Source: a bacterium (GTDB lineage Bacteria; Patescibacteriota; Gracilibacteria; BD1-5; UBA6164). Taken from it: a DNA stretch of 64,000 nt. This document shows, piece after piece, positions 49,561 through 57,297 of this stretch. A program made the translations under genes and the position numbers. The notes under the pieces are model-generated. The model saw only the letters and a list, made by a program, of their open reading frames with translations, did not search any database and was not told the origin of the DNA. The stretch is taken from assembly GCA_024635475.1 (NCBI GenBank), contig JAGXIW010000001.1, forward strand, positions 1 to 64,000, written 5' to 3'. Numbering within the stretch: position 1 is the stretch's first letter; each line of letters begins with the position of its first letter.

Positions 49561-49983
49561 CTATTTTAATTTTTCAAAAAACATCTTACATGCATTAATT
49601 ACATTTTTAAATCTATCAGATTGTAATTTAATTCATCAAAAATATCTCGTAACTATTAAAAGCAAATCAATTGCATTTTCTCTTTGTAATTCTCTCAAAA
49701 CACACATTCAGGCTCAAGTTTCTCAATCATCATTTTTTCACTCTAGTACACTTCAATTATCAAGTTTTACTCTGTATGCATATGTATTATGAGTTGCTTT
49801 TCTATAGTAATCATCAGTTACAAGATTTTTTATAAATTTATCCACATCTTCTTTTGATTTAACTTTGGCTCAAACAACAGTATATTTTGATTTTCTATCT
49901 ATAATTACATCCTTATAAATAATTGGAGATTTATTTATAGTAAATTCATCAGATAAGCTTAGTGAGATTTGATTTGTTGACAT
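49561..49983 (-). CDS. IMPACT/YigZ family (UPF0029) protein
   Basis: RKSKYTVVGAKVKSKEDVDKFIKNL, ATHNTYAYRVKLDNG, NDDGETGAGM, LLLIVTRYFGGIKL. Confidence 0.82.
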
Positions 49984-49984
49984 A

Positions 49985-51406
49985 TTACTTTAATTTACCT
50001 CTAATAAACTCATTTAATTTACTTATTTCCACAAGTTCTTGTTCCATTGTATCTCTGTATCTGATTGTAACATTTCAAGCATCGTAGTTTTCACTGTCGA
50101 TTGTTATACAAAAAGGAGTACCAATCTCATCAAATCTCGCATATCTCTTCCCTACACTACCTACATCATCATATTCACAAACAAAATCTTCTGATAGTTG
50201 TTTAAATATTGGTTTTGCTATATCACTTATTTTTTTAACTACTGGTAAGATTCAAACTGTAATTGGAGCTATTTTTGGATCAAGTTTTAAGTAAGTTCTT
50301 GTATCTTCTCAATCTCATTCTATAGTATATGCATCAACTAAAGTAGCAAGGAATAATCTAGTTAATCAGACAGATGGTTCAATTACATAAGGAATAAATT
50401 TTCTATTATTTACTGGATCAAAATATGATAAATCAACTTTTGATTCTCTCATATGGGCTTTTAGGTCAAAATCTGTTCTATCAGCTATTCCCCGAAGTTC
50501 TCACCAACCAAATGGAAATTTGAATTCTACATCTGTAGTAGCATTGCTATAATGAGATAATTCATCTTTATCGTGATCTCTAAATCTAAGAGATTCTTCT
50601 TTTAATCACAAAGTTTCAATTAGAAATATTCTACAATTTTCTTTCCACTCTGCATGAGTTTCTAGATCCTTACCAGGTTCACAGAAATACTCTATTTCCA
50701 TTTGTTCAAACTCTCTAGTTCTAAAGATAAAGTTACCTGGAGTTATCTCATTTCTAAATGCTTTTCAAACCTGAGCAACTCAAAATGGGATTTTTCTTCT
50801 ACTTGTTCTTACTATATTTTGAAAGTTTACAAAGATTCATTGAGCTGTTTCAGGTCTCATAAAAATAGTTGCACTTGAATCATCAGTAACTCATTGGAAA
50901 GTCTTAAACATCAAGTTAAATTTCTTGATATCTGTCCAATTTCATTCTTTTCAATTATTTGGGTTTTTTACCTTTTCTCAAACCATAACTTCTTTTTGTT
51001 TTTCTACACTCCATGATTCAGGGATAAGGTTAGTTACACCATATTTTTCAATTAAAATATTAGCATTATCTCATAAATTATTAATCAAATCTTCTAAAAG
51101 TTTATCAGCTCTAAATCTCTCATTTGTATTTTTATCATCTATAAGTGGATCCGAAAAACCTCATACATGTCCACTTGCTACCCAAACTTGTGGGTTCATA
51201 AGTATAGCGGAATCAAGAAGCATCATATCATCTTTTTTTTGGACAAATTCTTTTATCCATAGATTTTTTATATTTTCTTTCATCCTTGCTCCATAAGGAC
51301 CATAATCCCAACTATTTGCAAGTCATCCATAAATCTCACTTCAAGCATATACAAATCATCTATTTTTAGCTAGATTAACTATATCGTTCATTTCTATTGG
51401 TTTCAT
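49985..51406 (-). CDS. glyQS: Glycyl-tRNA synthetase (homodimeric class II)
   Basis: [85 protein letters not shown]. Confidence 0.95.
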
Positions 51407-51433: not shown

Positions 51434-52297
51434 TTATTTTAATGGAATAGCATCAGATAAAAATATTTTTCAAATGTAATTTTCTCTTAAATCCTCAATA
51501 TCTTCATTCTTCATATACCATCATACAGCTCAAAGATTTTTATTTATGTGATTTATATCAGAAGACTTAAATATAGTAACTACATTATCTTGTGATATAA
51601 GCCAATTTATTGCAACTTGTTCATTTGATTTATTATATTTTTTAGCTATGTCTAATATTTTAGGACTTCAAGTATTTGCTAATTTTGCAAGTTCTAAAGG
51701 TCTCCATGCTATAAGAAATATATCATTTTCTTGGCAATATTTTAATAATCAATCGCTTTCAGGTTGTCTATATATCAAATTATAATGCACTTGATTTACA
51801 GATATTTTATATTTACAATAACTCTGTGCTTCTATGAGACTTGCTGTAGAAAAATTGCATACTCATATGTTTTTAATGAGTCAATCTTCTAATAAATTTT
51901 CCATTTCATTTATAATCTCTTTCAATGAAAAATCTTTATTTCTCCAATGTATATAATAAACATCAAAATAATTTACTCGTACTCTTTCAAGACTGTCTAT
52001 ACAACATTTTCTTATATCTTTTGGAGATCTAGATCCCATTACTTTTGAGTTTATAATTAATTTATTTCTATCATATTTTGATATAGCTTTTCATAATAAT
52101 TCTTCTGAATATCATCCAGCATACATTTCAGCTGTATCTATATGAGTTACTCATTTATCTATTGCATATCTAATAGCATTTATATCTCTTTCATCATCAT
52201 TATTAGTATTTCTTTCTCTATATCATCACATAGGCCAAGTTCAAATTCATAGTTCTGGCAAAGAAAATCAATTTTTTAAAGTTTTTATATTTATCAT
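51434..52297 (-). CDS. Aldo/keto reductase
   Basis: LPELGIGTWPMGG, THIDTAEMYAGGYSEELLGKAI, RVNYFDVYYIHW, IGVCNFS. Confidence 0.88.
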
Positions 52298-52312: not shown

Positions 52313-52708
52313 TTATTTAATAGCAATTACATCAATCTCTATATCACATCCTTGTTTTACAGTATTAGAAATCTCAATCAGAGTAGAAACAGGCTTTGAG
52401 TTTGCAAAATATCTATTTCTGATTGGAGAAATTTTACTAAAATCATTTATATTTTTTACATATATTACTGCTTTAACAACATCATCTAAAGTCATTCATC
52501 ATTCTATTAGTATTGTTGAAATAGATTCAAAAATATACTCAGTTTGTTTTTCTATATTATCTGGAGCAACAGGAACCCCGTTTTTATCCATAGCTATTTG
52601 ACCTGTAACAAAAACCATTTTTTCAGATTTTTTCAAATCAATTTCTAATCAAGGAGAATATGCTCACATAACTTCTGCTCAGTTTTTTGGGATTAATTGT
52701 TTTTTCAT
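52313..52708 (-). CDS. RidA/YjgF family protein
   Basis: GAYSPGLEIDLKKSEKMVFVTGQIAMDKNG, MTLDDVVKAVIYVKNINDF; 131 aa. Confidence 0.88.
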
Positions 52709-52794: not shown

Positions 52795-53082
52795 TTAACC
52801 TCGTTTATTTATATATCTTTCTATATATTTCCTTTTCAATAATCATACAGATAATGTAGAAAGTATATATCAACAAGTTGGAATTATAGCATTTAGAAAT
52901 GGTTTATCAAAACCAAGAAACAACATAACGAGACTTATTATCATATAAGTTAAAACTAAAATAGACATTTTTCTTTCAAGTGAAGTTTCCCATGCTTTTT
53001 CGGCTTCTACTTTTTTATTTCTTGATTTAATTTTATCTATTTCTTTCTCCAATTCTTCTATAGTTTTTTTTGACATAACCAT
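52795..53082 (-). CDS. Small two-TM protein, first gene downstream of the T-box leader
   Basis: MVMSKKTIEELEKEIDKIKSRNKKVEAEKAWETSLERKMSILVLTYMIISLVMLFLGFDKPFLNAIIPTCGYILSTLSVGLLKRKYIERYINKRG. Confidence 0.75.
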
Positions 53083-53094
53083 TTTTTAAAAATT

Positions 53095-53300
53095 AAAAAA
53101 AGCCCCTAAAAACTTATAAATTTATATAAGTCCTCGGGGTCCTAGCTTTTATTTTTAAGCTTAATTGGACGGTTCCACCCAAGTTCCTTGTGATACTCAC
53201 AAGACACTTTTATTTTAAAATCTTCTACTCAAGTTTCCAAAGCTTGTATCTACAAAAATTTTAAATCTCATTTACAATATATACTTAAACCTTTTTTTGT
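53095..53300 (-). ncRNA. T-box riboswitch leader with terminator/antiterminator (likely glycine class)
   Basis: Minus strand CUUGGG-UGGAACC-GUCC ... GGAC-CCCGAG: helices A1 and A2 with a 7-nt UGGNACC bulge; alternative terminator using the same CCCC with AGGGGCUUUUUUU; stem CUUGUGA/UCACAAG just 5'. Confidence 0.85.
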
Positions 53301-53306
53301 CAAAAT

Positions 53307-53958: not shown

Positions 53959-55659
53959 CTATTTTCATAGTTTTATTCAGATACTTGATTCTAGGTAATC
54001 AAGTAAATTAGCATATTTATTTTTAGTTTTTATATTCATTTTTAATTTAATAGTTCAAATATTTTTAAAAATTATTTCTAATTTTTCATTAGTTTGTTTA
54101 TTTATTAAACTATCTATTGCTTTGATTTGTGATTTTCAACTTGTTGTTTTGTTAAGTTTTGTTTTTGATATAATTAACTGTTTTGAGTAATTAGCTTTCA
54201 GGGGTGGATTTGTTTCAGTTATAGTTTCAGTTTCTCAAGAACAAATAGTTTTTACTATAAACCGTTTTCAATTTTTTCTGGCATCAAATGCAAAATTTTT
54301 TCAATCTGAAGAATATCCTATATTAAGTACACTATCATATTTACCAATTTCTATTCAGTCTTTTACTATTACCCATTTTCAATCTTTTTCTGCTACATAA
54401 TAATAACCTTGTCAATCTGAAGAATATACTAACTCATCTACTCCATTATATTTATTTCATTCAACTCAATTTTTTACTATAAAATATAAATTATCCTTTT
54501 TAGCTACATAAGCATACATCTTTCAATTTGGAGAATATGCTAAATCATCTACTCTATCATATTTATTTCATTCAACTCAATCTTTTACTATAAATGCTTT
54601 TCAATCTTTTTCTGCTACAAAAGCATAACCATGTCAATCTGGAGAATATTTAAAATTATATGTAATATTATCATATTTATTTATTTCAACTCAATCTTTT
54701 ACAATGATCCATTTTCAATCTTTTTCTGCTACATAAACATAACCATATCAATCTGGAGAATATTTAAAACCATCTACTAAATTATATTTATTTCATTCAA
54801 CTCAATCTTTTACTATAAAATCTTTTCAATCATTTTTTACTACATAAGCATATCCAAGTCAATCTGGAGAATATGCTAATTCATCTACTCCATTATATTT
54901 ATTTCACTCAACTCAATCTTTTACTATAAATGCTTTTCAATCTTTTCCTGCTACATAAGCAAAACCTTGTCAATCTGGAGAATATACTAACTCATCTACT
55001 CTATCATATTTATTTCATTCAACTCAATCTTTTACTATAAACCTTTTTCAATCTTTTCATGCTACATAAACATAACCATGTCAATCTGGAGAATATTTCA
55101 AATAAGAAATACTATCATATTTATTTAATTCAACACCATCTTTTACTATAAACACTTTTCAATCTTTTCCTGCTACATAAGCAAAATCTTTTCAATCTGG
55201 AGAATATGTTAATTGACCTACAATATCATATTTATTTATTTCAACTCAATCTTTTACTATAAAATCTTTTCAATCTTTATATACTTCATAATAATAACCT
55301 TGTCAATCTGGAGAATATTTTAAATCAAATACTAGAGTATATTTATTTCATTCAACTCCATTTTTTACTATAAACTGTTTATCATCATTGTAAACCATAA
55401 AACTAAAACTTTTTCAATCTGGAGAATATTTTAATTTATCTACACCACTATCATATTTATTTATTTCAACTCAATCTTTTACTATAATCCATTTTCAATT
55501 TTTTTCTTTTACATAAGCAAAGCTTTTTCAATCAGGAGAAAATGTATAATTTCATGCATTCTCAATTATCTCTTCTTTACAAGTTTCCTCAGCAGAAACA
55601 AAAGATAGATTTCACAATAAAAAAGTAAATACTAAAAACAAAGATAATAATTTTTTCAT
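53959..55659 (-). CDS. Secreted WD40/TolB-like beta-propeller repeat protein, paralog 1
   Basis: About 12 repeats of [31 protein letters not shown]; 566 aa. Confidence 0.83.
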
Positions 55660-55679
55660 AAAATTTTTAGATTAAAAAA

Positions 55680-55710
55680 ATAACTCTTAGATTTTATTCA
55701 TAAGAGTTAT
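55680..55710 (-). terminator. Hairpin terminator (copy 2 of 3)
   Basis: ataactcttagattttattcataagagttat. Confidence 0.72.
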
Positions 55711-55731
55711 AATTGCAAAGTTATTATTTTA

Positions 55732-57297
55732 TTATTTTCAAAGTTTGATTCAGATACTTGCTTCTAGATAATCAAGTAAATCTGCATATTTGTTTTTAGT
55801 TTTTTGATTCATTTTTGATTTAATAGTTCATATATTTTTAAATATAATTTCTAACTTTTTAGTAGTTTGTTTACTAATTAGATTATCAATTGCTTTAATT
55901 TGAGATTTTCAATTTGTTGTTTTATTAAGTTTTATTTTTGAGAGAATTAGTTGCTTTGTGTAGTTTTTTGAACTTATATCTGTTTTTGATATAGTTTCAG
56001 TTTCTCAAGAACAAGTAGTTTTTACTATAAACCATTTTCAATCATTTTTAGCCACAAATGCAAAAGTTTTTCAATCTGGTGAATATGTTAAAGAATATCT
56101 ATTTATACTATCATATAGATTACTTTCTATTCAATTTTTTACTATAATCCATTTATTATCTTTTGCAGCAATAAATGCAAAACTCTTTCAATCTGGTGAA
56201 TAAGTCATACTAGTTACATAACCATATTTATCATTTTCTACTCAATCTTTAACTATTATATATTTCCATCAATCTTTTGTAATAATAAGACTAAAACTTT
56301 TTCAATCTGGTGAATATATAAGATCTCTTATCCCAAAATTTATATTTGATTCAATTCAATCTTTAACTATATACTTTTTTCAATCTTTTTCAGCAACAAA
56401 TGAAAAATTTATTCAATCTGGAGAAAGTATCAAAGCACCAATATTATCATATTTTTTTCATTCAATATTATTGTTAACTATAAACCATTTTCAATCTTTT
56501 TCAGCTATATAAAAAAAATTTTTTCAAAAAATTCTAGTAGATGGATCATATACACGATCATACTTATCAATTTCAATTCAATCTTTGACTATAATCCATT
56601 TGTTATTTTTAAAAGCACTATAATAAAAAATATTTCAATCTAGTGAATATATTGGATATCCCACATTATCATATTTTTTTCATTCAACTCAATCTTTAAC
56701 GATAAAACTCTTTCAATCTTTTTTAGCAACAAATGCAAAACTTTTTCAGTCTTGTGAATAATTTAAATAATTTGTATAATCATAATTATTTAGCTCTACT
56801 CAATCCTTAACTATAAACATTTTTCAATCTTTTCAAGCCATAAAAGCAAAACTTTTTCAATTTGGTGAAAACATTGGATGATAAGCATAATCATACTTAT
56901 CAATTTCAACTCAATCATTTACTATCATATATTTTCAATCTTTTTGAACCCCAAATGCAAAACTTTTTCAATCTTGTGAATATACTGAATTATGTGCATA
57001 ATCAGATTCATCAGTTTCAAATCAATATCATCATGTAAAAGTAAGATTTCAATCTAATCACATAACTATATTATACATATATTTATCATCATACTTATTA
57101 CTTTCAACTCAATCTTTCACTATAAAAGATTTTCAGTTTTTTCTAGCTCTATAGGCAAAACTTTTTCAATCTGCTGAGAATGTCGGAGCATATGCATTCT
57201 CAATTATCTCTTCTTTACAAGTTTCCTCAGCAGAAACAAAAGATAAATTTCACAATAAAAAAGTAAATACTAAAAACAAAGATAATAATTTCTTCAT
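55732..57297 (-). CDS. Secreted WD40/TolB-like beta-propeller repeat protein, paralog 2
   Basis: Same signal peptide and C-terminal domain as paralog 1; degenerate YSPDGKSF repeats; 521 aa. Confidence 0.83.

Follow-up and report, generated by a model that had tools for sequence, protein, structure and literature searches.

T-box riboswitches have been described mainly from Gram-positive bacteria. The window analysed here, a stretch of 64,000 nucleotides from a bacterium of the Gracilibacteria (contig JAGXIW010000001.1, assembly GCA_024635475.1), carries on its minus strand a leader that was initially annotated as a T-box, probably responsive to glycine. The locus raises the question whether this leader is a T-box switch, which tRNA it senses and whether, in an organism that decodes UGA as glycine, it has a special tie to the recoding. 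The comparative and folding data indicate that the element is very probably a T-box riboswitch that attenuates transcription and has uncharged tRNA-Gly(UCC) as its ligand. This reading is based on the sequence anatomy, on two folds that exclude each other, on covariation, on the match of specifier and bulge to anticodon and discriminator, and on linkage to glycyl-tRNA synthetase (GlyRS); from these we infer tRNA binding and aminoacylation sensing by the leader.

The whole unit including its promoter runs from 53303 to 53095. The span first proposed (53095–53300) was slightly short, and all elements named in it are present. Its features, in the direction of transcription, are as follows.

53298–53303, minus strand: −35 hexamer TTGACA; together with the −10 hexamer it matches 11/12 consensus positions, with a spacer of 16 nt
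53276–53281, minus strand: −10 hexamer TATATT, completing a sigma-70-like promoter (53303–53276)
53214–53265, minus strand: ultrashort Stem I of 52 nt (minimum free energy (MFE) fold; homologous hairpins in relatives)
53236–53238, minus strand: specifier GGA (Gly) in the apical loop CUUUGGAAA of Stem I, in the register of the ACC loops of thrS leaders
53205–53210, minus strand: AAAGUG, the 5′ purine motif (RRRxG) beside Stem III (RF00230 alignment; motif as defined in PMC7583486)
53186–53204, minus strand: Stem III hairpin UCUUGUGA-gua-UCACAAGG (MFE fold)
53178–53183, minus strand: helix A1, 5′ strand CUUGGG (fold, and pairing in relatives)
53171–53177, minus strand: T-box bulge UGGAACC, of which UGGA is complementary to the tRNA-Gly 3′ end UCCA
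53167–53170, minus strand: helix A2, 5′ strand GUCC (fold, and pairing in relatives)
53139–53142, minus strand: helix A2, 3′ strand GGAC (fold, and pairing in relatives)
53133–53138, minus strand: helix A1, 3′ strand CCCGAG, common to antiterminator and terminator
53095–53142, minus strand: intrinsic terminator, consisting of a hairpin (53139–53103) and U7 (53101–53095), which excludes the antiterminator

The promoter predicts a transcript start at about 53268, immediately 5′ of Stem I. The MFE fold bears out the earlier remark that Stem I is short: an outer helix (53265–53254/53225–53214) and an inner hairpin (53246–53243/53233–53230) are separated by an asymmetric purine-rich internal loop, at best a candidate for the K-turn that T-boxes have at the base of Stem I. 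The purine motif is present in the form AAAGUG-Stem III-AA. Stem II with its S-turn and the Stem IIA/B pseudoknot are absent from the window leader, where the gap between Stem I and Stem III is only 9 nt. The leader also lacks the elbow-binding distal double T-loop, since Stem I (53265–53214), placed between promoter and Stem III, leaves no room for it.

Five genes follow the leader on the same strand.

52795–53082, minus strand: 95-aa protein with two transmembrane segments according to the initial annotation, and without a Pfam or NCBIfam family
52313–52708, minus strand: RidA family protein (PF01042)
51434–52297, minus strand: aldo/keto reductase (PF00248)
49985–51406, minus strand: dimeric glycyl-tRNA synthetase of 473 aa (genetic code 25; PRK04173, 632 bits; TIGR00389, 507 bits)
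49561–49983, minus strand: YigZ/IMPACT family protein (PF01205)

RidA, the aldo/keto reductase and YigZ had been named from the sequence, and the family matches agree. The synthetase, announced as glyQS, is indeed a GlyRS, but it is of the single-chain dimeric type (TIGR00389/PRK04173) and not GlyQ plus GlyS. Homologues of the 95-aa protein also lie between T-box and GlyRS in eight relatives (G003, G004, G012, G016, G030, G035, G039 and G119); a membrane protein with a link to glycine is a possible reading. A search for terminator-like sites from the leader to yigZ was negative, and the gene order points to probable read-through as far as GlyRS in the window's genome. Promoter-like sites within the operon were not more frequent than expected by regional chance. 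One of them, before ridA (52789, 10/12), is a candidate internal promoter, and GlyRS may therefore be only partly under control of the leader.

The antiterminator and the competing terminator were both located as initially proposed. On the minus strand, CUUGGG-UGGAACC-GUCC pairs with GGAC-CCCGAG (53183–53133) across a loop of 24 nt that separates GUCC (ending at 53167) from GGAC (starting at 53142), and the terminator uses the same CCC strand before its U7. RNA folding shows the two structures to be mutually exclusive. When the RNA was truncated after the 3′ strand of helix A1, the unconstrained MFE structure was the antiterminator; for the full-length leader it was the terminator (−43.3 kcal/mol, versus −37.8 kcal/mol with the antiterminator forced, a cost of 5.5 kcal/mol). 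Preference for the antiterminator in the shorter RNA and for the terminator in the full leader is the pattern expected of a default-off switch. In principle, the element could act on translation, as do the short-Stem-I ileS T-boxes of Actinobacteria, and an apical specifier on a short Stem I is known mainly from that class. However, the terminator hairpin is G+C-rich, the end of its U7 is 13 nt from the first ATG (53082), and terminator-like tails recur in the leaders of relatives, so that translational control is very unlikely and attenuation of transcription is the reading followed here.

The standard covariance model is a poor detector of this leader. RF00230 aligned from end to end (53264–53162), including AAAGUG, Stem III and UGGAACCG, with a score of 27.6 bits (E-value of 4e-4 in 801 nt); no Rfam family reached its gathering score in the window, the gathering score of RF00230 being 93. 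"No hit" is thus true at that threshold only, next to a full-length match below it. A clostridial GlyRS leader, taken as control, scored 90.7 and also missed the threshold, indicating that the cut-off is strict and that the model is limiting, although 27.6 is still far lower. When RF00230 was run against the whole genome the window was missed; the sole match (11.7 bits) overlapped a tRNA cluster and was taken as noise.

Relatives were sampled by a BLAST search and by scanning 353 genomes of the class for the motif. In the window's order the motif was present in 60 of 77 genomes, mostly once per genome, and a reversed-pattern control gave almost no matches there. Downstream of the motif, each of the 60 genomes encodes GlyRS on the same strand (located in G045, G050 and G053 by BLAST instead of ORF calling), about 45 of them directly after it; in the window, three genes lie in between. 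Matches in G038b/c, G112, G241, G244, G267 and G268 were discarded as chance; outside the order, most matches to the motif with any N in the bulge came without an antiterminator.

The antiterminator helices covary across the 62 leaders that were aligned. In a sequence-only alignment 97% of the helix positions were paired (599/617 cells), whereas 500 shuffles averaged 86% and never exceeded 88%. Several pairs show compensatory changes, with types such as GUCC/GGAC, GUUC/GAAC, GUCU/AGAC and GCUC/GAGU. Only the antiterminator entered this count, because MAFFT alignments misplaced Stem III. The variable position of the bulge is A in 59/60 leaders of the order. The Stem III hairpin has been lost in about twenty relatives, mainly of the window's own family (17/58 by a strict motif count, with a few more borderline), the purines being kept as AAAAGUAAAA. 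In such leaders (L103, L098, L111, L097 and others of family f1; L063 and L064 of family f3) the AAAAGUAAAA-like purines abut helix A1.

Two leaders of the order depart further. In L078 (genome G043) and L090 (G050), about 100 nt upstream of GlyRS, a promoter-like sequence is directly followed by the discriminator, apparently without a Stem I, and the bulge in G043 is UGGGACC, yet its tRNA-Gly has U73. These two are possibly decayed or specifier-free T-boxes. The window element itself could likewise be a decayed T-box, whose terminator acts as a constitutive attenuator to which tRNA is irrelevant; its minimal Stem I, the missing Stem II and the existence of the G043 and G050 leaders, one with a bulge that mismatches its tRNA, are in line with this. 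Decay would not, however, preserve the specifier, the bulge and both antiterminator helices, which are conserved or covarying in 58 leaders, nor would it let the third base of the specifier follow the tRNA-Gly set (see below); we regard it as quite unlikely and retain the functional switch.

Which tRNA is sensed follows from the specifier and the bulge. In the 58 leaders of the order with a Stem I, the loop reads UGGN followed by a purine, and the specifier is GGN in 58/58 (GGA, GGC, GGU or GGG, and nothing else). The third base is A in the majority; 5 leaders have U, 2 have G, and 9 or 10 have C, the difference being G055, where the automatically called GGA adjoins the −10 box and manual inspection gives GGC. 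In families f2 and f3 the third base tracks the tRNA-Gly set. GGC was found in 9/11 genomes with tRNA-Gly(GCC) (8/11 by the automatic call) and in 0/10 without it (Fisher p of 2e-4 by hand and 0.001 by the automatic call, values that are indicative as the lineages are not independent); tRNA-Gly(GCC) was present in none of the f1 genomes. The tRNAs of the window's genome were taken from RF00005 and pattern searches. The single GGN-reading tRNA is Gly(UCC), and U73 occurs only in tRNA-Gly, -Cys and -Thr. A bulge with N=A needs U73 on the cognate tRNA, and tRNA-Gly(UCC) has it. Among the relatives, all of the checked tRNA-Gly genes that encode their CCA end have U73 as well.

The same loop could be read one base earlier as UGG, with tRNA-Trp as the ligand. 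The U before GG is invariant in the leaders of the order, and UGG is accordingly conserved as well. Trp is nevertheless excluded by its discriminator, as the G73 of tRNA-Trp and the bulge A do not form a pair. The register argues in the same direction. A conserved purine 3′ of the specifier is known from T-boxes (PMC7583486); the GGN register puts the conserved purine directly after the codon, whereas in the UGG reading the next base is any of the four. In the thrS leaders of other families of the candidate phyla radiation (CPR) the loops include CU-ACC-AA and UC-ACC-AA, with the codon at the position that it has in the Gly loop CU-GGA-AA, and a shift of one base would give UAC, CAC or similar instead of the Thr codon ACC. 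Moreover, the downstream synthetase is always GlyRS and never TrpRS. A response to tRNA-Trp, which had been mentioned as possible in another pairing, is extremely improbable. Purine position, U73 pattern, co-occurrence of GGC with tRNA-Gly(GCC) and the thrS register together place the specifier at GGN (GGA at 53238–53236). The initial reading as a glycine-responsive T-box heading a GlyRS operon, with a bulge A facing the discriminator U of tRNA-Gly, is thus borne out by conservation, GGN variation, the U73 of tRNA-Gly and the constant presence of GlyRS downstream.

The window's genome also encodes a UGA-decoding tRNA-Gly(UCA) with U73 and an encoded CCA (G000:C3, about 80414–80492, minus strand; L399), the 3′ end of which would fit the bulge. 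The anticodon does not: GGA mispairs with UCA at the first codon position, while a UGG reading would pair with a wobble. Overlapping UGG and GGA specifiers might thus serve both tRNAs, Gly(UCC) via GGA and Gly(UCA) via UGG with a G-U wobble, a possibility to which the U73 of tRNA-Gly(UCA) and the invariant UGG in the order lend some substance. Against it, the U before GG is also kept in the Gly leaders of CPR genomes without a sign of recoding (G060, G145, G502 and G608), and thrS leaders retain a pyrimidine at this position, which fits a structural, U-turn-like role. In addition, family f5, another recoded family of the class (in-frame UGA in GlyRS), had no motif matches in 49 genomes. Dual sensing is therefore improbable. 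The special interest that had been attached to a glycine-tRNA sensor in a UGA=Gly organism finds no backing in these data: the GGA/UCA mispair, the lack of the motif in f5 and the same leader design in CPR genomes that show no sign of recoding indicate that the switch is best seen as independent of the recoding.

In the proposed mechanism, RNA polymerase would start immediately upstream of Stem I, and the apical loop of the latter, shaped like an anticodon loop (U-[GGA]-A), would present GGA to the UCC anticodon; this mode of presentation is a proposal. The UCCA end of an uncharged tRNA would pair with UGGA of the bulge and stabilise A1 and A2, which would sequester the CCC strand, block the terminator and let the polymerase go on into the five genes from the 95-aa protein to YigZ. 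On a charged tRNA, glycine would prevent the UCCA/UGGA contact and the default terminator would form.

With the glyQ/glyQS T-boxes of Firmicutes (Bacillus, Geobacillus, Oceanobacillus) the window leader shares glycine as the amino acid, transcription attenuation, the bulge UGGAACC matched to U73, the absence of Stem II and GlyRS as the target. Those T-boxes have a long Stem I, a side-bulge specifier, the elbow-binding double T-loop and GGC for tRNA-Gly(GCC), whereas here Stem I has 52 nt and an apical GGA for tRNA-Gly(UCC). The apical specifier in a short Stem I and the lack of an elbow module are features of the actinobacterial ileS T-box, but the latter is translational and needs Stem II and the IIA/B pseudoknot for tRNA binding; the window leader has neither and carries a terminator instead. 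Overall, the window element is a T-box by its discriminator features and specificity, and misses only the Rfam score and the subclass elements. Its novelty lies in how it is built: Stem I is extremely short and carries an apparently anticodon-loop-like specifier whose third base is not C, and both Stem II and the elbow module are missing; in a related subgroup Stem III is gone as well.

The family thereby departs from several rules set out for T-boxes. Short-Stem-I T-boxes with an apical specifier are described as translational and dependent on Stem II and a pseudoknot (PMC7583486; see also PMC10651847), and glycine T-boxes as lacking Stem II and having a long Stem I with a GGC specifier (PMC7583486). 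Further rules hold that the third base of the specifier is overwhelmingly C and does not vary with the supply of isoacceptors, that no T-box can do without Stem III, and that the main steric sensor is a G-U pair at the base of A2 (PMC7583486). The A2 pair at this position is G-C in the window and in 50/62 leaders, and G-U in 12/62.

A scan of 381 CPR genomes for the bulge motif turned up thrS leaders from several families, in at least 10 genomes, and in 4 other genomes GlyRS leaders. The thrS leaders (L352–L355, L363–L365, L349, L342, L344 and L362), in most of which the ACC apical loop is visible, share with the window leader the small design, an apical specifier loop of 7–8 nt (often N-Y-[codon]-A-A), the bulge with N=A and the antiterminator; they differ in their Thr specifier and in having ThrRS as the target. 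Leaders with U at the variable position of the bulge precede aspS, valS and ileS in six more CPR genomes (L370, L378, L379, L381, L388 and L389). None of the scanned thrS, GlyRS and N=U leaders reached the Rfam threshold. GlyRS in Gracilibacteria and ThrRS in other lineages of the CPR are probably under conserved T-box control, of a kind that escapes current models. In the open-access literature searched, we found no paper on a T-box in Gracilibacteria, CPR or Patescibacteria. In a GlyRS tree limited to the class and Bacillota, the enzymes of the order group with those of Bacillota and not with those of other members of the class (96/91); this is compatible with transfer of the T-box-GlyRS unit.

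The chances are about even that the CPR leaders form a distinct T-box class, in which the 7–8-nt loop mimics an anticodon loop and the tRNA is held by the loop-loop contact and its 3′ end; elbow contact and Stem II would be dispensed with, as would Stem III in some lineages. If so, it would be the smallest natural sensor of tRNA charging known. Leaders of this size lend themselves to synthesis and testing, and they point to a minimal sensor for use in RNA engineering.

Two further observations were made around these loci. In one relative a SAM riboswitch (RF00162) lies near the T-box-GlyRS locus (L100:6687–6795). In the window, a tandem pair of paralogous, propeller-like secreted proteins is encoded at 53959–57297; they have a signal peptide in common and contain numerous 'YSPDGKSFAYVA..KDGK..IVKDGVE..KY' repeats.
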